Below are positions 211 through 64,000 of a stretch of DNA of 64,000 bases, piece after piece (the stretch's first letter is position 1; every line of letters begins with the position of its first letter). The notes under the pieces were generated by a model. The model was not told the DNA's origin and ran no database searches. It saw only the letters and a list, made by a program, of their open reading frames with translations. Location: positions 124,001 to 188,000 of the forward strand of contig NZ_BAABAU010000004.1 in assembly GCF_039537585.1 (NCBI RefSeq), read 5' to 3'. The stretch comes from Frondihabitans peucedani. Its GTDB lineage: Bacteria > Actinomycetota > Actinomycetes > Actinomycetales > Microbacteriaceae. Made by a program: the position numbers and the translations under genes.

Positions 211-1071
211 GTATCGGCTGTCGAGCCAGTCGACGAGGTCGGCCATGACCTCCTCGCGGTTCGTCTCGTTGAAGACCTCGTGCCGAGCGCCGTCGTAGAC
301 GATGAGCTCGACGTCGGTGAGGCGGCTGCGGTTCAGGTAGGCGTGGGCGAGCTTCTCGGCGCTGGCCGTGCCGCCGAGCGGATCGTCGCTGCCGACCTGG
401 ATGAGCAGCGGCAGGTCGCGCGCGAGCTTCTTCGCCGGCCGCCCGTAGAGCCGCAGCGCGTCGCGCAGCCCGAAGAGCTTGAGCACGCTGGCCTCGACGA
501 CCAACGGGTCGACGGCCATGGCAGCGGCGATCGCAGGATCGCGGCTCAGCCACTCGAACCCGGTGGTCCCGAGGTGGGCGTGCCGCTTGTTGAGGTCGCC
601 GCCGTTCATGGTCCGCGGAGTTCGGAGCGCCGTCCCGGTCAGGACCACCCCGTCGAAGTCGTCGGCGTGGGCATCGACCAGGATCTGCGCCATGAGCGAC
701 CCCCAGGAGTGACCGAGCAGGATCACGGGGACCCCGTCCGCCTCCTCGCGGATCAGCCCCGTGAGCTGTCGGATCGCGTCCATCGTCGCGCGGAGGCCGC
801 CGGGACCGAGGTGGCCGAGCATCCTGCTGCCCTCGCCCCACTGCCCGACGCCGGTCTGGCCGTGCCCGCGGTGGTCGTCGGCGTAGACGCTGTAGCCGGC
901 CCGGACCAGGTGGTTCGCGAGCTCCTCGTAGCGGAGGGCGTACTCGCCGACGCCGTGCGCGATCTGGACGACGCCGCGCGGCTTCGCCGCCTTCCAGGCG
1001 TAGTAGTGGATGGTCACGCCGTGGGCGTCGACGAACTCGTAGTCGCCGCGCGCGGCCTCGAAGGTGGGCAC
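199..1071 (-). CDS. alpha/beta hydrolase, monoacylglycerol lipase / lysophospholipase type
   Basis: This 290-residue protein has the alpha/beta-hydrolase layout of the lysophospholipase (Hydrolase_4) family. An HGVGEY oxyanion region lies near residues 40-45, the nucleophile elbow GHSWGS puts the catalytic serine near residue 122, an acidic residue sits near 229-230, and the catalytic histidine is in ARHEVFNE near 264. No signal peptide or membrane segment is seen, so it is probably a cytosolic carboxylester hydrolase; the substrate is unknown. It starts at GTG 1071, six bases after a CAGACT box, and there is no Shine-Dalgarno sequence, so its mRNA may be leaderless. The 15-bp repeat overlaps its end. 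Confidence 0.8.
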   Translation of the reverse strand: MPTFEAARGDYEFVDAHGVTIHYYAWKAAKPRGVVQIAHGVGEYALRYEELANHLVRAGYSVYADDHRGHGQTGVGQWGEGSRMLGHLGPGGLRATMDAIRQLTGLIREEADGVPVILLGHSWGSLMAQILVDAHADDFDGVVLTGTALRTPRTMNGGDLNKRHAHLGTTGFEWLSRDPAIAAAMAVDPLVVEASVLKLFGLRDALRLYGRPAKKLARDLPLLIQVGSDDPLGGTASAEKLAHAYLNRSRLTDVELIVYDGARHEVFNETNREEVMADLVDWLDSRYPAA

Positions 1072-1124
1072 GGCGTCAGTCTGCCAGGCGGGGTGCCGTG
1101 GCGGGAGTGCCTGTGCGGCAGCCC

Positions 1125-1877
1125 TCAGTGCGCGGAGTACCCGCCGTCGACGAGGTGGTACGAGCCCGTGATGAACGACGCCTCGTCGCTCAGGAGGAAC
1201 AACACCAGCGCCGCGACCTCGTCGGACGTGCCGAGGCGGCCGGTGGCGTGCTGCGCCTCGAGGCCCGCGAGCGCGTCGGCGTCGAGCGACGACCGGACGA
1301 GCGGGGTGTCGATGAAGCCGGGGCCGACCGCGTTCGTGCGGACGCCCTGCTTGGAGTACTCGAGCGCCGCGACCTTGGTCAGCCCGACGAGCGCGTGCTT
1401 CGATGCGACGTAGGCGGCGTTCTGCGCGATGCCGACCGACCCGAGGACCGAGCTCATGTTTACGATCGCTCCGCCGCCCGCGGCGACGAGGGCCGGGAGC
1501 TGATAGCGGAGCCCGTAGAAGACGCCGCTGAGGTCGACGCCGACGACGCGGTCCCAGGCGGCGACGTCGTAGTCGCCGATCCTGGCCGGCGCCGCGCCGA
1601 TGCCCGCGTTGTTGACGGCGAGGTGGAGCGCGCCGTAGGTGGAGACCGCGAAGTCGACGGCCTTCTCGCTGTCGGCGGCGATCGCCGTGTTGCCGGCGAA
1701 GGCGGCTGCGGTGCCGCCGGCGGCTGCGATCTCGTCGACGACGCGGGTGGCCGCGTCGAGCGCGATGTCGGTGACGATGACCGAGGCGCCCTCTGCGGCG
1801 AGCGCCTTGGAGACGGCCTCCCCGATGCCGGAGCCTCCGCCGGTGACGATCGCGACCCTGTTCTCGAACCTGCCCAT
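1125..1877 (-). CDS. short-chain dehydrogenase/reductase (SDR)
   Basis: A classical SDR of 250 residues: the cofactor loop TGGGSGIG is at residues 12-19, NNAG at 89-92, the catalytic serine near 142, and YVASK puts Tyr156 and Lys160 in place. The end VDGGYSAH is typical of 3-oxoacyl-ACP-reductase-like SDRs. The substrate cannot be told. I chose ATG 1877 (MGRFENR) because AGAAGGG lies just upstream and the fold begins at once; longer ORF starts add only basic non-conserved residues. It is divergent from a MarR gene, and the palindrome between them suggests MarR control. Confidence 0.85.
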   Translation of the reverse strand: MGRFENRVAIVTGGGSGIGEAVSKALAAEGASVIVTDIALDAATRVVDEIAAAGGTAAAFAGNTAIAADSEKAVDFAVSTYGALHLAVNNAGIGAAPARIGDYDVAAWDRVVGVDLSGVFYGLRYQLPALVAAGGGAIVNMSSVLGSVGIAQNAAYVASKHALVGLTKVAALEYSKQGVRTNAVGPGFIDTPLVRSSLDADALAGLEAQHATGRLGTSDEVAALVLFLLSDEASFITGSYHLVDGGYSAH

Positions 1878-1940
1878 GGTGATCCTGCGCCCTTCTCTAC
1901 ACGACACTCGTTGTCTAACCGACACGATACGCCCTACCGG

Positions 1941-1977
1941 TTTAGTTAGCAAAGCTAATTTGTTAGGCTAATGACCG
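1941..1977. promoter_or_regulatory. MarR operator and promoter region between the SDR and MarR genes
   Basis: TTAGCAAAGCTAA at 1946-1958 is a 13-bp palindrome in an AT-rich patch of an otherwise GC-rich region. TAGGCT at 1964-1969 is a good -10 element and ends eight bases before the MarR ATG at 1978, implying a leaderless MarR transcript. A second TTAG...CTAA-like half overlaps that -10 box. This is the arrangement expected for autorepression by the adjacent MarR protein, with possible joint control of the divergent SDR; binding is inferred, not shown. Confidence 0.55.
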
Positions 1978-2439
1978 ATGACAGACACCAGAGACGCCGC
2001 TCCACCCGTCAGCCGCACCGTCGCCCACGCTCAGCTTGCTACCGATGTACGCCAGGGGGTGCTCCGTCTCTCCCGGCGACTCCGCCAGCAGAAGGCCGAC
2101 ACCGGCGTCAGCGACGCGCAGATGGCGGCGCTCGGCTTCCTGCTCCAGCACGAGCCGCTGACGATCGGCGCGCTGAGCGAGCACGAGGGAGTCACTCCCC
2201 CGTCGATGAACCGCACCATCAACGCCCTCGTCGACCTCGGCTACGTCGAGCGCGGCACGGACGCCGACGACCGCCGCAAGGTGGTCCTCCGCACGACGAC
2301 CGCGGGCGCGAGCTTCGTGCTCGAGACGAGGCGGCGCCGCGACGAGTGGCTGGTGCCGCGGCTGGCACGGCTGACGGCCGACGAGCGCCGCACGCTGGCC
2401 GAGGCGACCGTGATCCTGCGCGAACTGGGCCGCTCGTGA
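1978..2439 (+). CDS. MarR-family transcriptional regulator
   Basis: A 153-residue winged-helix regulator. The HTH and wing read LTIGALSEHEGVTPPSMNR followed by LVDLGYVERG and DADDRRKVVLR, which is the MarR recognition helix and beta-wing signature. It starts at ATG 1978 directly behind a -10 box. Its stop codon overlaps the start of the MFS pump gene (GTGA), so the two are translationally coupled. This is a usual arrangement for a ligand-responsive repressor of an efflux pump, and the divergent SDR may belong to the same regulon. Confidence 0.88.
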   Translation: MTDTRDAAPPVSRTVAHAQLATDVRQGVLRLSRRLRQQKADTGVSDAQMAALGFLLQHEPLTIGALSEHEGVTPPSMNRTINALVDLGYVERGTDADDRRKVVLRTTTAGASFVLETRRRRDEWLVPRLARLTADERRTLAEATVILRELGRS

Positions 2440-3946: not shown

Positions 3947-4323
3947 CAGCCGGCGTCGCCGTCCTGGCCGGGATCTCGACGACCCTCTGGGCAGGGACGA
4001 GGCTCGGGCTGGCCGACTTCACGGCGCCCGGCGGCGTCCAGGCGGTCGGCATCAGCCCGGGGCGCCTCGACGTCGGCCACCTCGACTTCACCGTGGCCGT
4101 GCTCCTCCTGGTCGGTCTCGCCCTGCTGCTGATGGGGCTGATCCTGCTGCTCGCGACGGTCGCCGACTACTGGATGGACTCGCAGGATCGCCGCGACGCC
4201 CAGTACGCCGCCCGCCGACGGCGCCTCCAGGCCGACCGGCAGAGGCTCGAGGCCGACCGCCACCGCCTCGCCGCCAGCGTCGCGGAGACCCGCCCCGACA
4301 CCTCGCACCGCATCGCGCACTGA
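3919..4323 (+). CDS. small two-helix membrane protein with a charged C-terminal helix
   Basis: No family is recognised. The 134-residue product has a hydrophobic segment near residues 8-26, a linker, a strong one near 56-80 (VAVLLLVGLALLLMGLILLL), then a very basic Arg/Gln/Asp-rich stretch with RLQADRQRLEADRHRL heptad-like repeats that should form a cytoplasmic coiled coil. AAGGAG at about 3906 supports ATG 3919. It is monocistronic between the MFS gene and the GH114-like lipoprotein gene. One octamer GCAGGATC is at 4182. Confidence 0.65.
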   Translation: MRRHTAATVTAGVAVLAGISTTLWAGTRLGLADFTAPGGVQAVGISPGRLDVGHLDFTVAVLLLVGLALLLMGLILLLATVADYWMDSQDRRDAQYAARRRRLQADRQRLEADRHRLAASVAETRPDTSHRIAH

Positions 4324-4379: not shown

Positions 4380-5216
4380 ATGAGAACCACGGCCGCCCCC
4401 TTCCTCGCAGCGGTCGCCGCCGTCCTCTCGATCGGTCTCGTCGGCTGCGCGGGCGCAGGATCGGGCACTCCGTCCGCGGCCCGGGCCGACAGCGCCGCCG
4501 TGACCCTCCCGCCCACCACCGGCGGCTTCGACTACCAGCTGGGCGGCGGCTACACCCCGCCCCGCGGCACGACCGTCGTCACCCGCGACAGCACCGACAC
4601 GCCCGCGAAGAGCGTCTACTCGATCTGCTACGTGAACGGATTCCAGACGCAGCCGGGCGCCTCCTGGCCGAGCGACCTCATCCTGCACACCGCCTCCGGC
4701 GCACCGCTCGTCGACCCGGGCTGGCCCGACGAGCACATCATCGACGTCTCCACCGCCGCGAAGCGAACGCGAGCGGCGGCCAGGATCGGCACCACCATCG
4801 CTTCGTGCGCGAAGAAGGGCTTCCGCGCGGTCGAGTTCGACAACCTCGACTCGTACTCGCGATCGAAGAAGGCCCTGACGCTGGCCGAGAACGTCGCGTT
4901 CGCGAAGCTCCTCGTGGGTCGAGCGCACACCGCGGGGCTCGCCGCCTCGCAGAAGAACACGGCCGAGCTGGCGAAGCGCGGCCACGACGAGATCGGCTTC
5001 GACTTCGTCACCGCCGAGGAGTGCGACACCTACTCGGAGTGCGCCGTCTTCACGAAGGCGTACGGCAAGCGCGTCTACGACATCGAGTACACCGACGACC
5101 TCCGCGGGACGTTCCACGCGGTGTGCGCGCGCACGGCGACGCCGAAGCTCACGATCCTGCGCGACCGCGACCTCGTCACCCCGCGCTCGAAGGCGTACGT
5201 CTACCAGCGCTGCTGA
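4380..5216 (+). CDS. GH114-like lipoprotein (endo-alpha-1,4-polygalactosaminidase family)
   Basis: The 278-residue product begins with a type II signal peptide: a hydrophobic core followed by the lipobox LVGC near residues 19-22, so it should be a cell-surface lipoprotein. The mature part matches the TIM-barrel glycoside-hydrolase 114 family as I remember it: FDYQLGGGYTPP, YSICYVNGFQTQPG, the WPDE and D-V-S loop, and FRAVEFDNLDSY with candidate catalytic acids. It probably cleaves alpha-galactosaminide-type polysaccharide, but the substrate is inferred. TAGGCT at 4368-4373 lies six bases before ATG 4380, indicating a leaderless mRNA. A convergent terminator follows. Confidence 0.75.
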   Translation: MRTTAAPFLAAVAAVLSIGLVGCAGAGSGTPSAARADSAAVTLPPTTGGFDYQLGGGYTPPRGTTVVTRDSTDTPAKSVYSICYVNGFQTQPGASWPSDLILHTASGAPLVDPGWPDEHIIDVSTAAKRTRAAARIGTTIASCAKKGFRAVEFDNLDSYSRSKKALTLAENVAFAKLLVGRAHTAGLAASQKNTAELAKRGHDEIGFDFVTAEECDTYSECAVFTKAYGKRVYDIEYTDDLRGTFHAVCARTATPKLTILRDRDLVTPRSKAYVYQRC

Positions 5217-6187: not shown

Positions 6188-7113
6188 GAGCGCTCCCCCA
6201 CCCAGGTCGGGGCCGCCGACGTCGGGAAGTAGCGCTGCCGGATCGCCTCGGACGCCGCCGACGTCGCCGACTGCACGGCGTCCATGTGCGTGGGCAGGTC
6301 GTCGAGGATGTCGGTGATGGGCTTGTACTCGAGCTCGCTCCGCATCTGACCCAGGATCCGCACCCCCGCATCCGACGACGACGTCCTCGCGGTGTTCGGC
6401 TCGACCTCCCGGAGGCACGACTCGGCGCGCGAGATGGCGAACAGCACCGACCTCGGGAACAGCCGGTCGAGCAGCAGGAACTCCGCCGCGTTCCGGGCGC
6501 TCGGCACGCCGCGATAGGTGCGGAGATAGGCCTCGTACGCGCCGACCGAGCGCAGGATCGTCGTCCACGACGGCCCCGAGGCCTCCGTCAGCGTGCGCGT
6601 GGCCAGCAGCCGCGCGGTCATGTCGGCCCGCTCGATGCTGCGGCCGAGCGTGAAGAACTGCCACACCTCGTCGCGGCTCGTGGCCGACTCGATGATGCCG
6701 ACGGCGAGCGCCGACCGCTCGCGCACCCAGGCGAAGAACTCGCTGACCTTCTCGCTCGACACCTTGCGGGGCATCCTGGCCCTCGTCGTGTTGAGGCACT
6801 CCCAGAGCTCGGTCGAGACGATCTCGCGGGCCCGGCGGGCGTTCTCGCGCGCCGCCCCCAGCGAGTAGGCGATCGAGGCCGAGTTGTGGCGGTCCACCGC
6901 GAGCATCGAGAGGACGTCCGCGCGGGTCAGCTCCACGTCGTCGGGCGCGTCGCTGCCCATCACCGAGAGGAGGGAGCGGCAGGCGGCGTCCTCCTCGATC
7001 CACGGATCCTCGAGGAGGAGCTGCAGGTGGACGTCGAGGATGCGGGCCGTGCCGTCGGCCCGCTCGATGTACCGGCCGATCCAGAAGAGGCTCTCGGCGA
7101 TCCTGCTCAGCAT
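6184..7113 (-). CDS. alpha-E domain protein (DUF403)
   Basis: A 309-residue, almost fully helical protein. It begins MLSRIAESLFWIGRYIERAD, the hallmark of the DUF403 / alpha-E family, and repeats a similar motif in the middle (FTLGRSIERADMTAR near residue 160). No enzymatic residues have been established for this family. It starts at ATG 7113, overlapping the upstream ATP-grasp gene by seven bases, and its end overlaps the transglutaminase start. The three products are therefore probably made in fixed proportion, perhaps as a complex. Confidence 0.88.
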   Translation of the reverse strand: MLSRIAESLFWIGRYIERADGTARILDVHLQLLLEDPWIEEDAACRSLLSVMGSDAPDDVELTRADVLSMLAVDRHNSASIAYSLGAARENARRAREIVSTELWECLNTTRARMPRKVSSEKVSEFFAWVRERSALAVGIIESATSRDEVWQFFTLGRSIERADMTARLLATRTLTEASGPSWTTILRSVGAYEAYLRTYRGVPSARNAAEFLLLDRLFPRSVLFAISRAESCLREVEPNTARTSSSDAGVRILGQMRSELEYKPITDILDDLPTHMDAVQSATSAASEAIRQRYFPTSAAPTWVGERS

Positions 7114-8786
7114 TGCGGTGCTCCCTGATTGCTCTGCGATGGTGTCTGCTGCTGCGACTGCTGCTGGTGCTCCTGCTGCTGCTGCGACTGCTGGTCGCGC
7201 TTCGGGTCGTCCTGCGGCGAGTGGTCGGGCACGTGGTCGGCGGCGATGATCGGGATCGACGAGGTCGGCGTCGCCTGCTCGGTGACGAGCGTCGACACGT
7301 TGTGGCCGGAGGTCCAGGTGCCGGCCTCCACGCCGACGACCCAGGTGTCTTTCGAGCCGCCGCCCTGGCTGGAGTTCACGACGAGCTGCCCCTCCGGCAG
7401 GGCGACCCGCGTCAGGCCTCCGGGGAGGACCCAGATGTCGTCGCCGTCGTTGACCGCGAACGGGCGGAGGTCGGCGTGACGCGGTCGGAGGCCGTCGTCG
7501 ACGAGCGTCGGGATGGTGGAGAGCTGGATCACCGGCTGCGCGATCCAGCCGCGCGGGTCGCGGATCAGCCGCTTCCGGAGGTCGTCGAGCTCCTTGGCGC
7601 TGGCGGCCGGGCCCACGACGAGCCCCTTGCCGCCGGAGCCGTCGACCGGCTTCACCACGAGCTCGTCGAGGCGGTCGAGCACCTCCTCGAGCGCGCCGGG
7701 GTCCTCCAGCCGCCAGGTGTCGACGTTCGGCAGGACGGCGTCCTCGCCGAGGTAGTAGCGGATGAGGTCCGGCAGGTACGTGTAGACGAGCTTGTCGTCG
7801 GCGACGCCGTTGCCCACGGCGTTGGCGATCGTGACGGTGCCGAGGCGGGCCGCCATGAGCAGGCCGGGCGAGCCGAGCACCGAGTCGGCTCGGAACTGCA
7901 GCGGGTCGAGGAACTCGTCGTCGACACGCCGGTAGATGACGTCGACGCGCTGCGGGCCCGCGGTCGTCCGCATCCACACGCGCCCGCCCGAGCAGTAGAG
8001 GTCGCGGCCCTCGACGAGCTCGACGCCCATGAGCCGGGCGAGGAGCGTGTGCTCGTAGTAGGCCGAGTTGAAGACGCCGGGCGTCAGGACGACGACGGTC
8101 GGATCCTCGACGCCGACCGGCGCGCTCTTCCGCAGGGCGTGCAGCAGGCGGTTCGGGTAGTCGCCGACCGGGCGCACCCGCATCGAGACGAACAGCTCGG
8201 GCAGCGTCTGCGCCATCACCCGGCGGTTCGAGATCACGTAGCTGACGCCGCTCGGCACCCGCACGTTGTCCTCGAGCACCCGCCAGGCGCCCTTCTCATC
8301 ACGGATCAGGTCGATCCCCGAGACCTGGATCCGGACCCCGTTCGCAGGATCGATGCCCGCCGCCTGCCGGTGGAAGTGATTCGACGACGTGATGAGCGAC
8401 GCCGGGATGACACCGTCGGCCACGGCCCGCTGCGGCCCGTAGATGTCGGCCAGGAACGCCTCGAGAGCGCGGACCCGCTGCTTGACGCCGCGCTCGACAT
8501 CCTGCCACTCGCTCTGCTCGATCACGCGCGGCACCGCGTCGAGCGGGAACGGCCGCTCCTCGCCCGCGAAGTCGAAGGTGACGCCCTGCGCCAGGTACGA
8601 GTCGGCGAGGGCGGCCGTCCGGCCGCGGAGCTCGTCGTGCGTCATGCTGTCGAGCGCCGCGTGGATCTCCCGGTACATGTCGCGCGGCGACCCGGGGCCC
8701 CGGAACATCTCGTCCCAGGCACCCGTGCCGCTCGGGGGCGGGGTCCGGCTGGCGACGCCGGCGTACCCGTCGAAGAGGTCTCCCAT
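7107..8786 (-). CDS. circularly permuted ATP-grasp family protein (COG2308-like)
   Basis: A 559-residue protein of the circularly permuted ATP-grasp family that accompanies alpha-E and transglutaminase genes. Recognisable parts are VLEDNVRVPSGVSYVISNR, the LTPGVFNSAYYEH segment, ELVVKPVDGSGGKGLVVGP (the ATP-binding loop), and VVNSSQGGGSKDTWVV near the end. It probably forms amide bonds using ATP; its substrate is unknown. The last roughly 40 residues are an unusual Gln-rich tail encoded by CTG/CTC-like repeats at about 7130-7200. TAGGTT ends six bases before ATG 8786, so the operon mRNA is probably leaderless. Confidence 0.88.
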   Translation of the reverse strand: MGDLFDGYAGVASRTPPPSGTGAWDEMFRGPGSPRDMYREIHAALDSMTHDELRGRTAALADSYLAQGVTFDFAGEERPFPLDAVPRVIEQSEWQDVERGVKQRVRALEAFLADIYGPQRAVADGVIPASLITSSNHFHRQAAGIDPANGVRIQVSGIDLIRDEKGAWRVLEDNVRVPSGVSYVISNRRVMAQTLPELFVSMRVRPVGDYPNRLLHALRKSAPVGVEDPTVVVLTPGVFNSAYYEHTLLARLMGVELVEGRDLYCSGGRVWMRTTAGPQRVDVIYRRVDDEFLDPLQFRADSVLGSPGLLMAARLGTVTIANAVGNGVADDKLVYTYLPDLIRYYLGEDAVLPNVDTWRLEDPGALEEVLDRLDELVVKPVDGSGGKGLVVGPAASAKELDDLRKRLIRDPRGWIAQPVIQLSTIPTLVDDGLRPRHADLRPFAVNDGDDIWVLPGGLTRVALPEGQLVVNSSQGGGSKDTWVVGVEAGTWTSGHNVSTLVTEQATPTSSIPIIAADHVPDHSPQDDPKRDQQSQQQQEHQQQSQQQTPSQSNQGAPQC

Positions 8787-10428: not shown

Positions 10429-11370
10429 TCAGTCGATCAGCCCGAGCGAGACGTCCCAGAGCCGATCCGCAGACGCAGGATCGAGCGCGTACGCCTTGAC
10501 GCCGCGACCGGGCCGCTCAGGATCGAACGGCTCGGCCTCGTTCGCGTCCTCGAAGTAGCGGCCGCTGACACCCTCGACGAGCGGCGAGGCGGCGACGAGC
10601 ACCGACGTCGACGCGCCCTCCTCGGGCGTCTTGAAGGCGGGGTTGGGCTTGCCCTCGTCGTCGACCCAGCCGCGCTCGCGGATCCACTCGGGGTCGAGGT
10701 GGCGCTGCAGGTTCGTCATGATGCCGCCCGGGTGCACGGCGTTCGCGGTGATCCCGTCGTCGGCCCAGCGCTGCGAGACGCCGACCGCGAAGAGGACGTT
10801 CGCCGTCTTCGCCTGCCCGTAGCCGAGCCAGGGCTCGTACTCGCGGCGGTCGAACATGAGGTCGTCGAAGACGACGTCGGACGCGTGGTGGCCGGTCGAG
10901 CTGAGCGAGACGATGCGGGCGCCGTCGGCAGCCGCGAGAGCGTCGTGCAGAGCGAGGGCCAGGGCGAAGTGACCGAGGTGGTTGTTGGCGAACTGGAGCT
11001 CGTAGCCCTCCGGCGTGCGGGTGAGCGGGGTGGCCATGATGCCGGCGTTGTTGACCAGGATGTCGAGGGGCCCGGTCCACTCGGAGCCGAAGGCGCGCAG
11101 CGTGTCGCGCTCGGCGAGGTCGAGGTAGGCGGCCGTGACTTTCTCGGAGCCGGTGCTGGAGCGGATGTCGTCGACGGCGGTCGCGCCGGCCTCCAGATTG
11201 CGGACGGCCAGGGTCACCTCCGCGCCGGCTCCGGCGAGCGCTCGGGCGGTCTCGATGCCGATGCCGGAGGCGGCGCCGGTGACCACGGCGCGGCGGCCCG
11301 ACAGGTCGACCCCCTCGAGGACCTCGGCGGCGGTGGAGTGGGCCCCGAAGGGCGTGGTGAGACGAGTCAT
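10429..11370 (-). CDS. SDR-family oxidoreductase
   Basis: A 313-residue extended SDR-like protein. It has the cofactor loop TGAASGIG near residues 31-38, NNAGIMATPL, the long LQFANNHLGHFALAL stretch typical of retinol-dehydrogenase/WW-oxidoreductase-like SDRs, and YGQAK with the catalytic Tyr and Lys. The substrate is unknown. On the minus strand TAGCCT is followed by GAGCGC and ATG 11370, giving a leaderless start. It is convergent with the secreted/membrane pair. The 92-base gap at 10337-10428 shows no recognisable element. Confidence 0.83.
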   Translation of the reverse strand: MTRLTTPFGAHSTAAEVLEGVDLSGRRAVVTGAASGIGIETARALAGAGAEVTLAVRNLEAGATAVDDIRSSTGSEKVTAAYLDLAERDTLRAFGSEWTGPLDILVNNAGIMATPLTRTPEGYELQFANNHLGHFALALALHDALAAADGARIVSLSSTGHHASDVVFDDLMFDRREYEPWLGYGQAKTANVLFAVGVSQRWADDGITANAVHPGGIMTNLQRHLDPEWIRERGWVDDEGKPNPAFKTPEEGASTSVLVAASPLVEGVSGRYFEDANEAEPFDPERPGRGVKAYALDPASADRLWDVSLGLID

Positions 11371-12778: not shown

Positions 12779-13597
12779 GTGGGGATCCTCTTTGCACTGC
12801 TCGCGGCCGTCGGCCTCGCCGTCGGCACCGAGCTGCAGCACCGCGGCGTCCGCGCTCAGGGCAGTTCGTCGTCGCCGACCTCGGTGAGCGGGTTCCGAGC
12901 GCTCCTCGGTCAGCCGGTCTGGCTCCTCGGCGCCCTCCTCATCGGCATCTCGATCGTCCTGCAGCTGAGCAGCCTCCTCCTGGCGAACCTGGCCGTGGTC
13001 CAGCCTCTCGGGGCGATCGGCCTGCTCGTCTCCGCCTACCTGCAGGCCCGCCGGACGAGGCGCCGCCTCAGCCGTGAGAAGCGGATCGGGATCGCGCTCT
13101 GCATGGCGGGCATCGCCGCCTTCGTGGTCATCGCCATCGTCGTCGGACGACCCGAGGTCGTGACCGCGGCGTCGCTGGCCGGCGTGCTGATCACCCTCGT
13201 GATCCTGCTGGGGGCGGCGATCCTGCTGCTCCGGGTCCGCCGGACGGCACTGGCCACCGCCCTGGCTGCCGCGGTCATGTTCGGCTTCGTGGCGACGCTC
13301 GCCCAGATCGTGCTGACCGACCTCCTGAAGAACGGGATCGGGCCGGTCCCGATCGCGGCCGGAGCGGGGCTCGCAGCGGCAGGCATCGCAGGATCGCTGT
13401 GGGTGCAGAAGGCCCACTCGCAGGGCAGCTCGACGCTCGTGCTCGCCGGCCTGACGGTCATCGACCCGCTGACCGGGGTTGTTCTGACGAGCGTGTTCTT
13501 CGGCACGCTCGCCGGTGCGAGCGGCGGCGGCGTCTTCGGCATGCTGATCGCCGGGATCGTGGCGACGTCGGGCGTGCTGCTCGTCGCTCGCGACTAG
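12779..13597 (+). CDS. DMT-superfamily permease (EamA-like)
   Basis: A 272-residue protein with about nine hydrophobic helices. It starts VGILFALLAAVGLAVGTELQ and carries internal repeats of the drug/metabolite-transporter fold (LLANLAVVQPLGAIGLLVSA; a second half with LVLAGLTVIDPLTGVVL). The substrate is unknown. I chose GTG 12779 because TAGCGT (12765-12770) ends eight bases before it and the protein then opens directly with helix 1; an in-frame GTG at 12692 would add 29 basic residues. It is divergent from the secreted Ig-like genes. Confidence 0.75.
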   Translation: MGILFALLAAVGLAVGTELQHRGVRAQGSSSSPTSVSGFRALLGQPVWLLGALLIGISIVLQLSSLLLANLAVVQPLGAIGLLVSAYLQARRTRRRLSREKRIGIALCMAGIAAFVVIAIVVGRPEVVTAASLAGVLITLVILLGAAILLLRVRRTALATALAAAVMFGFVATLAQIVLTDLLKNGIGPVPIAAGAGLAAAGIAGSLWVQKAHSQGSSTLVLAGLTVIDPLTGVVLTSVFFGTLAGASGGGVFGMLIAGIVATSGVLLVARD

Positions 13598-23865: not shown

Positions 23866-26036
<2,171 letters not shown>

Positions 26037-26981: not shown

Positions 26982-27051
26982 CCGACGAGGATACCGGGCA
27001 GGATCGGGAGTCTCCCGCGCCGGCCCGCAGCCCTCGGCCCGTCCGCGCGCC

Positions 27052-34835: not shown

Positions 34836-37070
<2,235 letters not shown>

Positions 37071-45318: not shown

Positions 45319-45417
45319 GAGCACCTCCTCCGGGTCGGCTGCACGTCTTCCGTAGGGTACCCGAGCGCAGGATCCCGCCCTCCGTCAGCCGCCCGACGAA
45401 CCCCGCGGCCTCTCTGC

Positions 45418-52897: not shown

Positions 52898-54040
52898 CTA
52901 GCCCCGGTACGACCCCACGAGACGGACGGCGCCGCCGTCGACACCCTTGGCACCCTGCTCGAAGCCGGCCAGGTCGCGCTCCGATGTCGAGACGGCGCCG
53001 ACAGGCCAGGTCTCGATGCCCGCGGCCGTGAGAAGCGCGGCGACCGAGTCGGCCTGAGCGGCGGACACGACGGCGATCATGCCGATGCCGAGGTTCCAGG
53101 TGCCCTCGCTCGACTCGAGGGTCGAGCCGGCGATGTCGCTCAGGACCCGGAAGACGGTCGACGGAGACCAGGAGGAGCGGTCGAGCTCGACCCAGGCGCC
53201 GACCGGGAGCACGCGGGCGAGATTCGCCGCGATGCCGCCACCGGTGACGTGGCTCAGGGCGTGGACGGCGCCGGCGGCAGCCGGGTCGTCGAGCACCGCG
53301 AGCAGCGGCGACGTATAGAGGCGGGTGGGCTCGAGGAGGGCCTCGCCGATCGGCCCGCCGAGGTCGGCCAGGGTGTCGGTGTAGTCGAGACCGGCCGTGC
53401 GCAGGATGTGACGCACCAGCGAGAAGCCGTTGGAGTGCAGTCCCGAAGACGCGAGCGCCAGCACCACGTCTCCGTCTCCGACGAGGTGCGGGCCGAGCTG
53501 CCGCGACGCCTCGACGGCTCCGACAGCAGCACCGGCGACGTCGTAGTCGTCGGGCCCGAGGAGGCCCGGGTGCTCCGCAGTCTCGCCGCCGACGAGGGCG
53601 GTGCCGGTGGCGGAGCAGGCGAGGGCGATGCCCTTGACGATGTCGGCGATGCGCGACGGCACCACGCGGCCGCAGGCGATGTAGTCGGTCATGAAGAGCG
53701 GCCGCGCACCCACCACGACGATGTCGTCGACGACCATGCCGACGAGATCCTGCCCGATGGTGTCGTGCTTGTCGAGCGCCTGCGCGATCGCCACCTTCGT
53801 GCCGACACCGTCGGTGGAGGTGGCGAGGAGCGGCTGGTCGTAGGCCTTGAGGAACGACACGTCGAACAGGCCGGCGAAGCCGCCGACACCGCCGAGGACC
53901 CCGGCCGTGTGGGTGGCCTGGACGGCCTCCTTCATCAGCTCGACGGCGAGGTCGCCTGCCGCCGTGTCGACTCCGGCCTCGGCGTAGGAGCTGGAGGACG
54001 AGGTCGCGCCCCGGGTGTCGGCGGGGTGGGAGTTGGCCAA
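52898..54040 (-). CDS. purM: phosphoribosylformylglycinamidine cyclo-ligase (PurM)
   Basis: A 380-residue AIR synthetase: SYAEAGVDTAAGDLAVELMK, FDVSFLKAYDQPLLATSTDG, DDIVVVGARPLFMTDYIACG, GTALVGGETAEHPG and SHVTGGGIAANLARVLP are the family's ATP- and substrate-binding motifs. It catalyses step five of purine synthesis. The start is the TTG at 54040, giving a short Ser-rich N-terminus; an internal start cannot be excluded. It is transcribed away from purF, with 71 bases between the two starts. Confidence 0.93.
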   Translation of the reverse strand: MANSHPADTRGATSSSSSYAEAGVDTAAGDLAVELMKEAVQATHTAGVLGGVGGFAGLFDVSFLKAYDQPLLATSTDGVGTKVAIAQALDKHDTIGQDLVGMVVDDIVVVGARPLFMTDYIACGRVVPSRIADIVKGIALACSATGTALVGGETAEHPGLLGPDDYDVAGAAVGAVEASRQLGPHLVGDGDVVLALASSGLHSNGFSLVRHILRTAGLDYTDTLADLGGPIGEALLEPTRLYTSPLLAVLDDPAAAGAVHALSHVTGGGIAANLARVLPVGAWVELDRSSWSPSTVFRVLSDIAGSTLESSEGTWNLGIGMIAVVSAAQADSVAALLTAAGIETWPVGAVSTSERDLAGFEQGAKGVDGGAVRLVGSYRG

Positions 54041-55662: not shown

Positions 55663-56478
55663 ATGTTCGACGCCCGCCCGCCGGATCCTGCGACCCGGAT
55701 CGCCGGCGCCCCGCCCGTTCTCGGAGTGCCCGCGCTCAGCATCCGCGGCCTCGTCAAGCGCTTCGGCGAGAAGGTCGCCGTCTCGGGGATCGACCTCGAC
55801 GTGCCGGCCGGCTCCTTCTACGGCCTCGTGGGCCCGAACGGCGCCGGCAAGACGACCACGCTGTCGATGGCGACCGGGCTGCTGCGGCCCGACGCCGGGC
55901 ACCTGAGCATCCTCGGGGTCGACGTCTGGAGCGATCCGACCGCGGCCAAGCGACTCGTCGGCGTCCTGAGCGACGGGATCGCCCTCTTCGACCGCCTGAG
56001 TGGCGAACAGCTCGTCACCTACCACGGCCTCCTCAACGGCATGGATCGCGAGACCGTCCGCACGCGCACCCGCGACCTGCTCGACCTCCTCGACCTGACG
56101 GAGGCAGGCGGCAAGCTCGTCGTCGACTACTCGGCGGGGATGACGAAGAAGATCGCCCTCGCGACAGCCCTCGTTCACGCGCCCCGGCTGCTGGTGCTAG
56201 ACGAGCCGTTCGAGTCGGTCGACCCGGTGTCGGCGGCGAACATCCGCGACATCCTGCACGGCTACGTCGAGGGCGGCGGAACGGTCATCGTCTCCAGCCA
56301 CGCCATGGACCTCGTGCAGCGGATGTGCGACCACGTCGCCGTCATCGCCTCGGGCCGCGTCCTCGCCTCGGGCACCGTCGACGAGGTGCGCCAGGGACAC
56401 GACCTCGAGGACGTCTTCGTCGACCTCGTCGGCGGCCGGCACCACTCGAAGGGCCCCGAGTGGTTGCGCACCTCCTGA
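55663..56478 (+). CDS. ABC transporter ATP-binding protein
   Basis: A 271-residue ATPase: GLVGPNGAGKTTTLSMATGL (Walker A), a weak signature YSAGMTKKIALATALVHAP in place of LSGGQ, LLVLDEPFESVDPVSAANI (Walker B) and VIVSSHAMDL (His switch). The two-gene arrangement with the next permease resembles type-II ABC-2-like exporters. The substrate is unknown. ATG 55663 follows TAGGGT directly, so it is probably leaderless. Confidence 0.88.
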   Translation: MFDARPPDPATRIAGAPPVLGVPALSIRGLVKRFGEKVAVSGIDLDVPAGSFYGLVGPNGAGKTTTLSMATGLLRPDAGHLSILGVDVWSDPTAAKRLVGVLSDGIALFDRLSGEQLVTYHGLLNGMDRETVRTRTRDLLDLLDLTEAGGKLVVDYSAGMTKKIALATALVHAPRLLVLDEPFESVDPVSAANIRDILHGYVEGGGTVIVSSHAMDLVQRMCDHVAVIASGRVLASGTVDEVRQGHDLEDVFVDLVGGRHHSKGPEWLRTS

Positions 56479-58031
56479 CCCTGCGGCTCCTGGTGATGCG
56501 CAACACCCTGGCGCGGAGCCCCTGGCAGCTGGTCGCCGTGATCGTCGGCGGACTCTACGGCCTCGGAGTCCTGGCCGGCATCTTCGCCGGGCTCGTCGCG
56601 CTGAGCTTCGCCCCGCCTGCCCTCACCAGGACGATCACGGTGCTCGCAGGATCGGCCACGCTCCTCGGCTGGATCATCGTGCCCCTGTTGACGTCCGGCA
56701 TCGACCAGACGCTGAGCGTCTCGCGGCTGAAGATCTTCCCGATCGGGTCGACGCGGCTCGTCGCCGCCCTCGCGGTCTGCGGGATCCTGGGGATCCCGGG
56801 GGCCGTCACCCTGCTCGCCGGGGTCTTCACGGCGGCCGCCTGGTGGCACCAGCCGCTCGTGGCGGTGGCAGCCGTGGCGACGGCGGGCCTGGCCGCCCTG
56901 ACCTGCGTCTGCGGGTCGCGACTGATCGAGTCGCTGAACGCGGGGCTCTCGGCGCGGCGCCGCTACCGCGAGATCTCGGGCGTCCTGATCCTGATCCCGC
57001 TGCTGCTCCTCGGGCCCCTCATCACGCTGCTGTCGACGGGTCTGCAGGGGGCGTCGTCGTCGCTCCCCGCCCTCGCGGAGGGCCTGTCGTGGTCGCCGCT
57101 CGGGGCCGCCTGGGCGGTGCCCGGCGACCTCGCGACCGGTCACGGCGGCGCCGCCGCGCTCAAGACGCTGATCGCCCTGGCGACCCTCGCGCTGATCGTC
57201 GTCGCCTGGCGCAGGAGTCTCGCCTCGGCCCTCGTCTCGACGCTCCAGCCGGCCACGAAGGCCGCGGCGAGCGGCAGGATCGGCCTCTTCGCCCGGTTCC
57301 CCGCCACTCCGACGGGTGCCGTCGCGGCTCGCGCCCTCACCTACTGGCTGCGCGATCCGCGGTACAGCCGGCAGCTGATCCTGATCCCGATCTTCCCGAT
57401 CCTGCTCTACGTGAACAGCCGGACGACCGGACTCGACGGCCTCGTCTCGGCTGCGGGCCCGATCGTGGCCGTGCTCGTGTCGCTGACGATCTTCACCGAC
57501 CTGTCGTACGACTCGACCGCGTTCGCTGCCCACATCTCAGCCCGGGTCACCGGCCGGGCGGACCGGCTCGGCCGGGTGCTCGCGGTGGCGTCGTTCGCGG
57601 TGCCCATCGTGATCCTCATCACGATCGGCTCGGTCGTCGTGACCGGCGTCTGGTCGTCGCTGCCGGCCCTCCTCGGGCTGTCGATCGGACTCCTGCTCAG
57701 CGGCTTCGGGCTGTCGAGCGTCTCGTCGGCGCGCATCGTCCTGCCGGTCCCTGCGCCCGGCGACAGCCCCTTCGCGGCCAAGACCGGCGCGGGGTTCACC
57801 ACGTCGGTGACGACGCTGGCGACCTGGGGCATCCTCGCGGTGCTGGCCCTGCCGGAGATCGTGCTCGCGATCACGGCGGGAGCGACCGGGAGCCTCCTGC
57901 TCGGCTGGCTCACCCTCGTGACCGGTATCGGCCTCGGGACCGTGCTCCTGGTCGTGGGGATCAGGATCGGCGGACGGGAGCTCGACGCCCGCGGGCCCGA
58001 GCTGCTGACGCGACTGCGGGTGCAGCGGTAG
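56460..58031 (+). CDS. ABC exporter permease, about 12 helices
   Basis: A 523-residue membrane protein with many hydrophobic segments and no ATPase motif. It opens HLLTLRLLVMRNTLARSPWQ, a cytoplasmic N-terminal helix common in ABC-2-like permeases. Arg/Tyr-rich cytoplasmic turns (LSARRRYREISG; YWLRDPRYSRQL) appear in both halves, suggesting an internal repeat. GTG 56460 overlaps the ATPase gene by 19 bases, so the two are coupled. The likely role is export of a drug, lipid or peptide. Confidence 0.82.
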   Translation: MVAHLLTLRLLVMRNTLARSPWQLVAVIVGGLYGLGVLAGIFAGLVALSFAPPALTRTITVLAGSATLLGWIIVPLLTSGIDQTLSVSRLKIFPIGSTRLVAALAVCGILGIPGAVTLLAGVFTAAAWWHQPLVAVAAVATAGLAALTCVCGSRLIESLNAGLSARRRYREISGVLILIPLLLLGPLITLLSTGLQGASSSLPALAEGLSWSPLGAAWAVPGDLATGHGGAAALKTLIALATLALIVVAWRRSLASALVSTLQPATKAAASGRIGLFARFPATPTGAVAARALTYWLRDPRYSRQLILIPIFPILLYVNSRTTGLDGLVSAAGPIVAVLVSLTIFTDLSYDSTAFAAHISARVTGRADRLGRVLAVASFAVPIVILITIGSVVVTGVWSSLPALLGLSIGLLLSGFGLSSVSSARIVLPVPAPGDSPFAAKTGAGFTTSVTTLATWGILAVLALPEIVLAITAGATGSLLLGWLTLVTGIGLGTVLLVVGIRIGGRELDARGPELLTRLRVQR

Positions 58032-58479: not shown

Positions 58480-58555
58480 TCAGCCATTGTCGCAGGATCT
58501 CCCAGGGAGCGACGCGCCGGATGCTTCAGACCGAGAGGCCTCGGCTCGCAGCGCG

Positions 58556-58951: not shown

Positions 58952-58958
58952 CGTCCCC

Positions 58959-60227: not shown

Positions 60228-61108
60228 GCGCAGCCGCGGCCGAGCTCCCCGGCTGGACCCACGTCTACTCGGGCAAGGTCCGCGACCTCTACGTGCCGGA
60301 CGGCTCCACCGGCCTCGCCGACGCGCCTGCCGTGCTGGTCGTCGCGAGCGACCGCGTCAGCGCCTTCGACTTCGTCCTCGAGCCCGGCATCACCGACAAG
60401 GGCGCCCTGCTGACCCTCCTGAGCACGTGGTGGTTCGGCGAGCTCCGCGACGTGCCGAACCACCTCCTCGATCCTGCGCTGTCTCCGGCTCCGGTCCCGG
60501 CGTCGGTCGCCGATCGCGCGATGCTCGTGAAGCCGCTCGACATGTTCCCGATCGAGTGCGTCGTGCGCGGCTACCTCGTCGGCTCGGGCTGGCTGGAGTA
60601 CCAGGAGTCGGGCACGGTGTGCGGCGTGGCGCTGCCCGAGGGTCTTGCGTCGGGCGACCGGCTCCCCGAGCCGATCTACACGCCGGCCTTCAAGGCCGAC
60701 CTCGGCGACCACGACGAGAACATCACCTACGAGCGCACCGTGGAGCTCGTCGGCGAAGGCGTCGCCTCGCGGCTGCGGGCCCTGTCGCTGCACATCTACG
60801 CGACCGCCGCTGCGACGGCCGCCTCGCGCGGCGTGATCCTGGCCGACACGAAGTTCGAGTTCGGCGCCGACCGCTCGACGGGCGAGATCACGCTGGCCGA
60901 CGAGGTCCTGACCAGCGACTCGAGCCGCTACTGGGACGCCGACGTCTACGCCTCCGGAAACCGGACCGACAGCTTCGACAAGCAGATCGTCCGCGACTGG
61001 CTCGCTGCCAACTGGGACCGACAGGGCACCCCGCCGATCCTGCCCGCCGACATCGTCGAGCGGACGGCCGCGCGGTACCGGGAGCTCCTCGAGCGCCTCA
61101 CCGCCTGA
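60224..61108 (+). CDS. purC: phosphoribosylaminoimidazole-succinocarboxamide synthase (PurC)
   Basis: A 294-residue SAICAR synthetase of the long (yeast-like) form: HVYSGKVRDLYVP, VVASDRVSAFDFVLEPGITD, MFPIECVVRGYLVGSGWLEY, GVILADTKFEFGAD and LTSDSSRYWDADVY are the conserved nucleotide- and substrate-binding segments. It joins CAIR and aspartate. It follows purD with a four-base overlap, so purD-purC form an operon of two non-consecutive purine steps. Confidence 0.94.
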   Translation: MSAAAAELPGWTHVYSGKVRDLYVPDGSTGLADAPAVLVVASDRVSAFDFVLEPGITDKGALLTLLSTWWFGELRDVPNHLLDPALSPAPVPASVADRAMLVKPLDMFPIECVVRGYLVGSGWLEYQESGTVCGVALPEGLASGDRLPEPIYTPAFKADLGDHDENITYERTVELVGEGVASRLRALSLHIYATAAATAASRGVILADTKFEFGADRSTGEITLADEVLTSDSSRYWDADVYASGNRTDSFDKQIVRDWLAANWDRQGTPPILPADIVERTAARYRELLERLTA

Positions 61109-61706: not shown

Positions 61707-62300
61707 ATGACCGATCCGGCGGCTTCCGCGACCCGTACGCCCTACGAGCCGCACTTCACCATCACACCCGAGGGCGAGCTGACCCTCGACGACCACGAGG
61801 CCGTCACCGCGATGCTCTCCCGGGCCTTCCCCGACTACTCGCACTGGTATCAGGGCGCGCGGAGCTGGGCGGGCATGCAGCCCGAGCTCCGGGTCGTCGC
61901 CAGGTCGGGCGACGTGGTCGTCGCCCACGCCGGCATCCGGCGCCAGTTCGTCACCGTGGGCGAGACCGATCTGCTCGTCGGGTGCGTCGGGATGGTGGCG
62001 GTGTCGCCGATCCTGCAGGGCACCGGCCTCGGCACCCAGCTGCTGCGCCTCGTCGACGCCGCCCTCGACCACCTCGGCGTGCCGTTCGGCGCTCTCGAGG
62101 CCGGCGAGGATGTGCAGCCGTTCTACCGGAAGCACGGCTGGGAGCCGCTCGAGGGCGTGACCGGCCACTACAACGACTTCACGGCCGACGGAGCGTCGAC
62201 GCTCGTCTCGACCGACGACGGCTGGCTGGTCCGGCCGTGCCGGTCAGAGCGTCCCGCCTGGCCCGCCGGCGACCTCCACTGGAACGGCCAGCTCGTCTAG
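61707..62300 (+). CDS. NodA-like / aminoglycoside 2'-N-acetyltransferase-like acyltransferase
   Basis: The 197-residue product has a GNAT-type core that recalls NodA: SRAFPDYSHWYQGARSWAGM, VVVAHAGIRRQFVTVGETDL, LVGCVGMVAVSPILQGTGLG and FYRKHGWEPLEG. NodA transfers a fatty acyl chain to a chitin oligosaccharide; related actinobacterial proteins include aminoglycoside 2'-N-acetyltransferases. No nod-like genes are near, so acetylation of an amino sugar or antibiotic is more likely. TACGGT (61695-61700) ends six bases before ATG 61707. Confidence 0.7.
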   Translation: MTDPAASATRTPYEPHFTITPEGELTLDDHEAVTAMLSRAFPDYSHWYQGARSWAGMQPELRVVARSGDVVVAHAGIRRQFVTVGETDLLVGCVGMVAVSPILQGTGLGTQLLRLVDAALDHLGVPFGALEAGEDVQPFYRKHGWEPLEGVTGHYNDFTADGASTLVSTDDGWLVRPCRSERPAWPAGDLHWNGQLV

Positions 62301-62318
62301 CCACCGCGACACGCAGAT

Positions 62319-62356
62319 CGGCCCCGGACACCGGATGCTTCCGGTGTCGGGGGCCG
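62319..62356. terminator. strong bidirectional terminator
   Basis: A 17-base arm at 62319-62335 and its complement at 62340-62356 (one mismatch) form a long GC-rich stem closed by TGCT, followed by TTCT. It lies between the convergent NodA-like and catalase genes. Confidence 0.75.
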
Positions 62357-62378
62357 TTCTGGGTGTCTCGAGCGACTG

Positions 62379-63881
62379 CTACTGCAGGATGCCGACCTCG
62401 GCCGGGTCCTCGTTCGAGCCGGGGGCCTCGGGCGAGACGGCGGCGCGCACGCGGGCACCGAGCTCCGCGTCGACCGACGTCCAGTAGGCGAACACGCGCT
62501 CGAGCAGGTCGGGGCGGGTCACCTTCGAGACGTGGCCGACGATGTTGCTGACGAGGCGGTCGCGCTGGTCGTCGTCGAGCACCTCGCGCACGAGGGTCCC
62601 GGCCTGGCCGAAGTCGTCGTCCTCCGGGTGGAGCGTGGCCGTCGAGCGCTGCAGCAGGCCGTCGCTCTCCCAGCCGGAGTCGTCGCCGTGCGCGGCGGGC
62701 GAGGCCGCGGGGCCGCCGACCGAGTTGGGCGCGTACACCGGGGTGGTCGCCGACGAGAACTGGTAGCGGGCCGCTCCGTCTTTCGAGTAGTCGCGGACCT
62801 CGGTCTTCGGCAGGTTGACGGGCAGCTGCGCGTGGTTGGTGCCCACGCGGTAGCGGTGCGCGTCGGCGTAGCTGAAGATCCGGGCGAGCAGCATCTTGTC
62901 GGGGCTGGCCGCGATGCCGGGGACGAAGTTCGACGGTGCGAAGGTCGCCTGCTCGATCTGCGCGAAGTAGTTCTCGGGGTTGCGGTTGAGCTCCATCGTG
63001 CCGACCTCGATGAGCGGGTAGTCGCTGTGCGGCCACACCTTCGTCAGGTCGAACGGGTTGAAGCGGTACGACGCGGCGTCCTCGTAGGGCATGACCTGCA
63101 CGCTGAGCTTCCAGGTCGGGTAGTCGCCCCGCTCGATGGCCGCGGACAGGTCGCGGATGTGGAAGTCCGCGTCTTCGCCCGCGATGCGGTCGGCGTCGTC
63201 CTGAGTGAGGATCTCGTTGCCCTGCTGGGTCTTGAAGTGGTACTTGATCCAGAACTTCTCGCCGGTGGCCGAGATCCACTGGTAGGTGTGCGAGCCGAAG
63301 CCGTCCATCTGGCGCCACGAGGCGGGGAGCCCGCGGTCGCCCATCAGCCAGGTGACCTGGTGCGCCGACTCGGGCGAGAGGGTCCAGAAGTCCCACTGCA
63401 TGTCGTGGTCGCGGAGGTGCGAGCCGGGAAGGCGCTTCTGCGAGTGGATGAAGTCGGGGAACTTGATGCCGTCGCGGATGAAGAACACCGGCGTGTTGTT
63501 GCCGACGAGGTCGTAGTTGCCCTCGCTCGTGTAGAACTTCAGCGCGAAGCCGCGGGGGTCGCGCCAGGTGTCGGGCGAGCCCTGCTCGCCGGCGACGGTC
63601 GAGAAGCGCGCGAGCAGGTCGGTCGTCGCACCGGGCTGGAACAGTGCGGCCCGGGTGTACTTCGAGACATCGCCGGTCACGGTGAACGTGCCGAACGCGC
63701 CGCCGCCCTTCGCGTGGACGATGCGCTCCGGCACCTTCTCGCGGTTGAACTGGGCGAGCTTCTCGACGAGGTAGACGTCGTGGAGCGCGATGGGGCCGTC
63801 CGCCCCGACGCTCTGCGAGTGCTCGTCGCTCGCGACGGGGGCACCCGCCTGGGTGGTCGTGTAGTGATTCTCTTCGGTCAT
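62379..63881 (-). CDS. katA: catalase (monofunctional, small-subunit clade)
   Basis: A 500-residue haem catalase: [20 protein letters not shown] with the distal His56, [18 protein letters not shown] with the asparagine-containing loop before it, and the proximal haem ligand in [20 protein letters not shown]. It breaks down hydrogen peroxide in the cytoplasm. AGAAGGAG precedes ATG 63881. It lies 30 bases after the stop of a fur-family gene on the same strand, so it is probably controlled by that peroxide-sensing regulator. Flavin oxidases elsewhere in this window would produce peroxide. Confidence 0.95.
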
Positions 63882-63911
63882 CGTGTGACTCCTTCTCGAT
63901 GGTCGGGTTGT

Positions 63912-64000
63912 CTAGGGGGCCGTGTGGAGCGCAGGATCCGCGCCCACCGGCTCGTCGTCGGCAGCGCCCTCGCGCGCCCGGCAGTCGGGGCAGAGGCCCC
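63912..64000 (-). CDS. C-terminal end of a Fur-family regulator (partial)
   Basis: The minus strand reads GLCPDCRAREGAADDEPVGA and ends in HTAP before TAG at 63912-63914. The CPDC pair is the structural zinc motif found at the end of Fur/PerR proteins. Its place just before katA on the same strand is that of the FurA-type repressor of catalase in actinobacteria. Only the last 28 residues are visible. Confidence 0.75.
   Translation of the reverse strand, partial: GLCPDCRAREGAADDEPVGADPALHTAP

Follow-up and report, generated by a model that had tools for sequence, protein, structure and literature searches.

The octamer in the 64-kb window and in the whole genome

The window examined here, a 64-kb stretch of Frondihabitans DNA (G000:C4:124001-188000) from a genome of 3,692,699 bases in 12 contigs (G000), is densely marked by the octamer GCAGGATC, whose reverse complement is GATCCTGC. 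Exact matching on both strands found 60 copies in the window, 30 per orientation, against a chance level of 3.40 (standard deviation, sd, 2.08; largest 11) in 100 dinucleotide-preserving shuffles. This agrees with a preliminary description of this DNA, which had put the number at about 59, about half in each orientation; the first copy begins at 533 and the last ends at 63938. The 13 positions that it had named as using scarce codons also held up, with 11 lying inside called genes in the claimed frame and two (4455 and 55684) lying upstream of called starts, in frame with longer open reading frames. The whole genome carries 3,208 copies (1,579 + 1,629), that is 869 per Mb or about one per 1.2 kb, and the same word read backwards occurs 12 + 10 times. 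As the analyses below show, selection or drive acting copy by copy maintains the abundance of such words at the level of DNA, both inside genes and in the gaps between them.

Excess of the word over codon usage and composition

Octamer statistics for the Markov models were taken from 1.264 Mb of G000. Among octamers with at least 50 counts, GCAGGATC is the most over-represented against both order-2 and order-3 models, and models of orders 1, 2, 3 and 4 predict 71, 94, 197 and 364 copies, respectively, versus 1,085 observed, with the same pattern in the window. When orders 5 and 6 are fitted to this DNA itself, they predict 773 and 1,034. In the Markov check proposed in the preliminary description, orders 5 and 6 literally give the refutation named there; we judge them uninformative, because these models absorb the word's own 6- and 7-mers and therefore cannot decide whether GCAGGATC is in excess.

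Genes were called with our own caller, which uses codon-position GC and is not a published gene finder, and synonymous codons were then permuted inside each called gene in 20 shuffles. The 1,010 called genes contain 896 copies, about eightfold more than this null provides (107.9, sd 5.6, maximum 114). The excess is seen in every reading frame; in the frames with the rarest codons, the observed and shuffled counts are 165 vs 3.2 for Asp-Pro-Ala and 121 vs 1.4 for Ala-Gly-Ser. Asp-Pro-Ala is spelled GATCCTGC at 165 of 319 occurrences in G000 vs 0 of 153 in loci from sister genera, all of which were drawn from a single neighbourhood (purF) and are therefore not independent of each other. Where the protein sequence permits the word, it is present at 896 of 1,718 sites in G000 (52%), at 146 of 278 on contig C3, and at 270 of 563 in the nearest relative, F. 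sucicola (G006). The corresponding fractions are 31/76 in G001, 30/79 in G002, 16/55 in Frondihabitans sp. Leaf304 (G005), 30/112 in G004 and 10/65 in sp. PhB188 (G003). In the sister genera they are 11/168 for Frigoribacterium, 47/526 for Curtobacterium (a pool including L104 and L116, titled only Microbacteriaceae bacterium) and 24/240 for 19 other loci. Most of the 16 loci (of 80) that these counts omit are metagenome bins. In the pooled Frigoribacterium and Curtobacterium loci GCAGGATC stands at background.

Codon shuffling and permitted-site counts therefore agree that codon bias does not make the word and that the DNA word itself is kept, as had been proposed. Three words of identical dinucleotides occur at 53-131 per Mb vs 858 for GCAGGATC; this and the codon shuffle rule out codon bias and low-order composition as causes. 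Coding and non-coding DNA are populated alike, as had also been described, called genes having 0.843 copies per kb and the remaining DNA, which still contains genes overlooked by the caller, 0.828. It is scarcely credible that composition or codon usage of the ordinary kind, without any dedicated function, accounts for the word: the order-5 and order-6 predictions would favour this, but those models hold the word itself, the codon shuffle yields 108 of 896 copies, equal-dinucleotide words remain rare, and the sister-genus loci lie at background.

Peptides that permit the word occur at 1,617 per Mb in G000 vs 839-1,046 in the sister-genus loci of the one gene neighbourhood. Frigoribacterium permits the word in 23 of 94 realised and 36 of 64 unrealised alignments, and other loci in 135 of 409 and 32 of 289. 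The idea that protein sequences have shifted so as to accommodate the word was considered and rejected, the orthologue site-by-site test giving per-site p values of 0.27 and 0.20.

Conservation, shape of the word and DNA without it

Conservation was followed in 50 window genes with orthologues in the six Frondihabitans relatives (G001-G006), 26 to 36 per genome. Between G000 and F. sucicola, 20 of 36 aligned copies are identical, and where the amino acids are identical 19 of 26 keep the whole octamer vs 37-50% for other octamers, depending on the frame. With the six relatives taken together, 45 of 97 copies with identical amino acids are kept, which is above the control in one of three frames (28/45 vs 38%). 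The conservation at synonymous positions looked for in the preliminary description is thus found against F. sucicola and does not exceed the control in two of three frames over the six relatives, so that close relatives share inherited sites and more distant ones show turnover. Among sites permitted in both G000 and a relative, the word stands in both at 49, in G000 alone at 58, in the relative alone at 4 and in neither at 51. The one-base differences of the relatives at copies comprise both transitions and transversions, at several positions.

Among the 24 one-mismatch neighbours, only four exceed a twofold excess over the codon shuffle, namely ACAGGATC (106 vs 37), CCAGGATC (281 vs 110), TCAGGATC (182 vs 52) and GCAGGATG (262 vs 115). 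All four are end variants, and interior variants reach 0 to 1.8-fold of expectation, indicating a tight core, CAGGAT, with loose ends. By the same measure GGAGGATC is depleted (28 vs 136), which looks like avoidance of a ribosome-binding sequence. The flanks show a weak preference for C or A before the word and G after it. The word is not palindromic, and overlapping inverted pairs make up 19 of 1,623 copies' sites. In G000, close copy pairs show no 10-base helical phasing, and copy positions along genes are flat across deciles.

The word is not spread over all DNA of the cell. Contig C2 (94,412 bases) has 6 copies where 5.5 are expected by chance, and contig C3 has 177 in 200 kb where 14.2 are expected. 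C2 is lower in GC and encodes a ParA-type ATPase, a TraG/TraD-type coupling protein, a resolvase and at least two YhcG/DUF1016 nucleases; the first three of these make a conjugative plasmid or element its probable identity. The word is likewise scarce in two 20-kb stretches of C1 with low GC, which hold 2 and 6 copies (G000:C1:1936001-1956000, L072, and 1744001-1764000, L068). From C2 and these stretches we conclude that acquired DNA lacks the word. L072 also carries a second PF01555 methyltransferase (C1:1950993-1951913) beside long open reading frames, possibly a restriction-type island.

Word dialects in Frondihabitans and other Microbacteriaceae

Whole-genome counts of GCAGGATC within Frondihabitans range from 844 (G003) to 3,208 (G000). 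In 50-135 kb of coding DNA from each of seven Frondihabitans genomes, the word is at least threefold enriched over the codon shuffle in all seven (112 vs 14.4 in G000), and other spellings are favoured beside it. G003 favours GCAGGAAC (34 vs 10.0) and CAGGAACT (33 vs 8.2), G005 favours AGGATCCG (31 vs 4.5), and G004 and G001 add GCAGGAGC (54 vs 13.2 and 29 vs 6.9, respectively). The differences in GCAGGATC count within the genus are therefore partly a change of spelling. The tetramer GATC, which the preliminary description had singled out within the word, is not its key part, since GCAGGAGC and GCAGGAAC of the sister species lack it.

A survey of 150 Microbacteriaceae genomes (sizes rounded in the density figures) found GCAGGATC dense only in the three Frondihabitans sampled and in G075, the next genome, G019, having 214 per Mb. 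G075, from another genus, combines 1,559 copies in 2.9 Mb with the two pilus markers described below, which may reflect convergence or dialect contact. Another word, CGGATGCC, exceeds 400 per Mb in 42 of the 150 genomes and 200 per Mb in 80, with a maximum of 4,041 copies in 3.9 Mb (G085), and genomes below 1.9 Mb mostly have few. In named 21-kb loci it reaches 1,305 per Mb in Herbiconiux and Compostimonas and 838 in Salinibacterium; low loci include pooled Curtobacterium (92), Frigoribacterium (119) and G000 (100). The trinucleotide GGA, judged by eye, is common to all dialect words. In our reading, taxon-specific dialects of the word extend across the family and share the core GGA; GCAGGATC is the local one. 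Neither GCAGGATC nor CGGATGCC was found as a whole word in the PMC papers searched, and among the results of a broader literature search, judged as listed, none described a word of this kind from Microbacteriaceae.

Candidate machinery

Methyltransferases were searched in two families, PF00145 and PF01555. PF00145 (C5 DNA methylase) has no match in G000, G002, G003, G005 or G006, and a C5 methylase is thereby rejected for G000. One PF01555 (N6/N4) methyltransferase is common to all 16 Microbacteriaceae genomes searched, including a reduced genome without the word, and is 87-93% identical among seven Frondihabitans and 68-79% identical with other genera. Being this similar across genomes with different preferred words, this enzyme does not follow the word and was rejected as the cause of the dialects. 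Its gene in G000 (C4:121776-122498, locus L230) lies 1.5 kb before the window start and looks like an orphan. Vsr-type or other single-class repair was rejected as well, no single neighbour word being drained enough to feed the excess. RecC (PF04257) was detected in the E. coli control and in 0 of the 150 Microbacteriaceae, and RecBCD/Chi was rejected on this ground.

ComEC (PF03772) is present in every one of the 24 genomes searched for it, and type IV prepilins in each of the seven Frondihabitans examined; the type IV pilus markers PF07963 and PF05157 occur in 82 and 84 of the 150 genomes. A cluster in G000 (C1:2143001-2154500) encodes two T2SSE ATPases, one with MshEN, one T2SSF protein and four N_methyl proteins, of which one scores below the Pfam cut-off; from these Pfam matches we read the products as putative PilB-, PilT- and PilC-like and prepilin-type proteins. 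Among genomes of at least 2.5 Mb, with five weak PF05157 matches scored as absent, the median density of CGGATGCC is 334 per Mb with the PilB marker vs 162 without it (n = 72 and 44, p = 0.004, kinship ignored).

Orientation of neighbouring copies

G000 as a whole shows no strand bias (1,579 vs 1,629), and its neighbouring copies, those of the window included, alternate, 686 pairs having the same and 873 the opposite orientation (p = 2.4e-6). By data batch, same and opposite pairs number 446/587 in the first 1.264 Mb and 77/102 and 163/184 in later batches. A null was built by drawing copies from the sites that the protein sequence permits. Compared with it, G000 has too few same-orientation pairs at 50-400 bp, the distance at which the alternation is strongest (124 vs 175, sd 12, z -4.3), too many opposite pairs (222 vs 183, sd 13, z 2.9) and a lowered per-strand variance/mean ratio in 5 kb (0.91 vs 1.05, sd 0.045). 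In F. sucicola this null reveals no alternation (z -0.3, 0.9 and 0.9; pairs 32 vs 28 and 36 vs 32), its raw neighbours being 155 same and 196 opposite. Nor do CGGATGCC neighbours alternate in pooled loci of other genera (162 same and 174 opposite; 42 and 41 at 50-400 bp). The strand split is near 50:50 in sampled G000 blocks, in which origin and terminus were not located, and 480 kb of F. sucicola (170 forward, 195 reverse, origin assumed near coordinate 1) show no clear leading-strand bias. The alternation is possibly specific to G000. The earlier argument that the lack of strand bias speaks against a polar signal is thus right about the whole-genome balance and too simple as an exclusion, given the alternation in G000 that was not reproduced in F. 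sucicola.

Table 1. Copies of the octamer and one gene in the 64-kb window
Feature	Position	Strand	Basis
word GCAGGATC	533..540	+	exact match
word GCAGGATC	717..724	+	exact match
word GCAGGATC	1881..1888	-	exact match
word GCAGGATC	2412..2419	-	exact match
word GCAGGATC	4140..4147	-	exact match
word GCAGGATC	4182..4189	+	exact match
word GCAGGATC	4455..4462	+	exact match
word GCAGGATC	5153..5160	-	exact match
word GCAGGATC	6552..6559	+	exact match
word GCAGGATC	7099..7106	-	exact match
word GCAGGATC	8344..8351	+	exact match
word GCAGGATC	10475..10482	+	exact match
word GCAGGATC	13201..13208	-	exact match
word GCAGGATC	13219..13226	-	exact match
word GCAGGATC, Ala-Gly-Ser frame	13388..13395	+	exact match, gene list
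word GCAGGATC	13927..13934	+	exact match
word GCAGGATC	14323..14330	+	exact match
word GCAGGATC	14749..14756	+	exact match
word GCAGGATC, Asp-Pro frame of + gene	15747..15754	-	exact match, gene list
word GCAGGATC, AGG ATC frame	16108..16115	+	exact match, gene list
word GCAGGATC	16479..16486	+	exact match
word GCAGGATC	16866..16873	+	exact match
word GCAGGATC	17002..17009	-	exact match
word GCAGGATC	17910..17917	+	exact match
word GCAGGATC	18425..18432	-	exact match
word GCAGGATC	19126..19133	-	exact match
word GCAGGATC	21243..21250	-	exact match
word GCAGGATC	22339..22346	-	exact match
word GCAGGATC	22950..22957	+	exact match
word GCAGGATC	25731..25738	-	exact match
word GCAGGATC	26998..27005	+	exact match
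word GCAGGATC	29049..29056	-	exact match
word GCAGGATC	31877..31884	-	exact match
word GCAGGATC	35374..35381	+	exact match
word GCAGGATC	37003..37010	-	exact match
word GCAGGATC	38285..38292	+	exact match
word GCAGGATC	38327..38334	+	exact match
word GCAGGATC, overlapping its inverse	41225..41232	+	exact match
word GCAGGATC, overlapping its inverse	41229..41236	-	exact match
word GCAGGATC	42094..42101	-	exact match
word GCAGGATC	42157..42164	-	exact match
word GCAGGATC, AGG ATC frame	43773..43780	+	exact match, gene list
word GCAGGATC	44985..44992	+	exact match
word GCAGGATC	45367..45374	+	exact match
word GCAGGATC	47098..47105	-	exact match
word GCAGGATC, Asp-Pro frame of + gene	47813..47820	-	exact match, gene list
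word GCAGGATC, Ala-Gly-Ser frame	49292..49299	+	exact match, gene list
word GCAGGATC, Asp-Pro frame of + gene	49502..49509	-	exact match, gene list
word GCAGGATC, Ala-Gly-Ser frame	50186..50193	+	exact match, gene list
word GCAGGATC	51637..51644	-	exact match
word GCAGGATC	53746..53753	-	exact match
word GCAGGATC	55684..55691	-	exact match
word GCAGGATC, Ala-Gly-Ser frame	56646..56653	+	exact match, gene list
word GCAGGATC, AGG ATC frame	57274..57281	+	exact match, gene list
word GCAGGATC	57398..57405	-	exact match
word GCAGGATC	58492..58499	+	exact match
word GCAGGATC, Asp-Pro frame of + gene	60470..60477	-	exact match, gene list
word GCAGGATC	61036..61043	-	exact match
word GCAGGATC	62009..62016	-	exact match
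word GCAGGATC	63931..63938	+	exact match
RecQ-type helicase with RQC and HRDC domains, ordinary	23866..25986	-	

What the word may be

The likeliest mechanism, which we hold with rather less than even confidence, is that these are DNA-uptake-type self-recognition words. Several marks of uptake sequences are present, namely a top-ranking octamer in both orientations, upkeep at the DNA level inside genes, and dialects with a constant core. A putative pilus-associated DNA receptor would prefer word-bearing DNA, which would be imported through ComEC, and recombination with such imported DNA of relatives would raise the copy number; a changed receptor preference would give rise to a new dialect, and loss of the uptake system would leave the word to decay. 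Among the roles offered in the preliminary description, an uptake sequence is in our view the best fit, as a candidate role only. We put forward tentatively the wider idea that Microbacteriaceae practise DNA self-recognition by uptake sequences, which would be the first case in Gram-positive bacteria, with dialects of about eight bases around GGA for each genus or species, one thousand to four thousand copies per chromosome, changing between sister species and recurring in separate genera. To our knowledge, no uptake-sequence self-recognition was previously known in Gram-positive bacteria, and a literature search gave no report of it there.

Several observations weigh against the uptake mechanism. 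The association of the pilus with CGGATGCC has p 0.06 when taken by genus, and of nine genera with both pilus states, four follow it, one runs counter to it and the other four are tied or have densities too low to tell. Four of the ten genomes densest in CGGATGCC (G085, G169, G133 and G153) have neither pilus marker, so that the words can do without a type IV pilus of this kind; its place might be taken by a Tad/Flp pilus, as described for Micrococcus luteus. ComEC is also found in genomes without the word, and the orientation alternation of G000 is not predicted by an orientation-blind uptake receptor.

Other mechanisms would account for part of these data. In cyanobacteria-like fashion, a methyltransferase reading the core, together with methylation-directed repair, might create and keep the words as a by-product; a density near one per kb, an over-represented core with one-base end deviations, and clade dialects do recall the highly iterated palindromes (HIPs) as described in the available part of PMC4390886. 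We nevertheless consider this unlikely, because the word is not palindromic, PF00145 has no match in the five genomes named above, the PF01555 enzyme is the same across differing dialects and in the reduced word-free genome, and the mixture of transitions and transversions in relatives exceeds one repair class. Nor is it probable that the word is bound by an abundant protein of the nucleoid, or one that organises the chromosome, with a specificity drifting from genus to genus: the word's even, genome-wide distribution confined to the chromosome would suit such a protein, but fast word change within a genus and absence in sister genera would need about 2,000-3,000 sites to drift together without an outside force. 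No candidate for such a protein came to light, although no search aimed at one was made. A polar, Chi-like signal inside the cell, in which an AdnAB-type helicase-nuclease or a strand-tracking machine reads one orientation and each orientation is kept evenly spaced, would fit the alternation in G000, its depleted same-orientation and enriched opposite close pairs, and its more even per-strand spacing. Its probability also appears low, since RecC is absent from all 150 genomes, the alternation is missing in F. sucicola and for CGGATGCC in other genera, and F. sucicola lacks a clear leading-strand bias.

The finding of a word kept at the DNA level does not depend on which mechanism is right. Should these be uptake words, they would mark boundaries of gene flow and would help in practice to transform these bacteria; otherwise a DNA-reading system of a new kind, with about 1,000 sites per Mb, is to be discovered. 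In both cases the words are strong signatures of taxonomy, by which the resident chromosome can be told from acquired DNA.

Comparison with known systems

Uptake words with dialects are known in Neisseriaceae and Pasteurellaceae, and HIP1 is known in cyanobacteria; words turning over between actinobacterial sister species would constitute a natural experiment in word origin, spread and replacement. Like Chi sites, GCAGGATC is an over-represented octamer with some sign of orientation dependence (in G000); unlike them, it occurs in a family whose 150-genome sample lacks RecC, and has no clear replication-strand bias. HIPs are octamers at about one per kb that are replaced by other words in some lineages, with deviations gathered at their ends, according to the available part of Elhai (PMC4390886), and the Frondihabitans word resembles HIP1 and the alternate HIPs in density, lineage replacement and loose ends. 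However, HIPs are palindromes with matching methyltransferases, whereas GCAGGATC is not palindromic and the tested methyltransferases mismatch its distribution. The likeness to HIP1 drawn in the preliminary description therefore extends to density and to a core with flexible ends, and not to a palindrome, a PF00145 enzyme or an N6/N4 enzyme varying with the word.

A close likeness is that to the DNA uptake sequences (DUS) of Neisseriaceae and the uptake signal sequences (USS) of Pasteurellaceae, which are non-palindromic words of about 10 bases, present about once per kb in both orientations, in genes and gaps. The available portions of two reports describe uptake words as evenly spaced in both orientations without orientation bias (Bakkali, PMC1939737) and as biased in orientation and position within genes (van Passel, PMC2346458); unlike the latter, GCAGGATC has flat positions within genes. 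The Frondihabitans word further differs from DUS and USS in belonging to Gram-positive actinobacteria, in having eight bases, in its inconsistent association with pilus genes, in its alternation in one genome, and in being known from sequence alone. For DUS, the accessible part of PMC3630211 gives 2,245-3,603 copies per genome and species dialects around a conserved CTG, and the Frondihabitans word is like them in this respect, its dialects being likewise built round a three-base core, here GGA.

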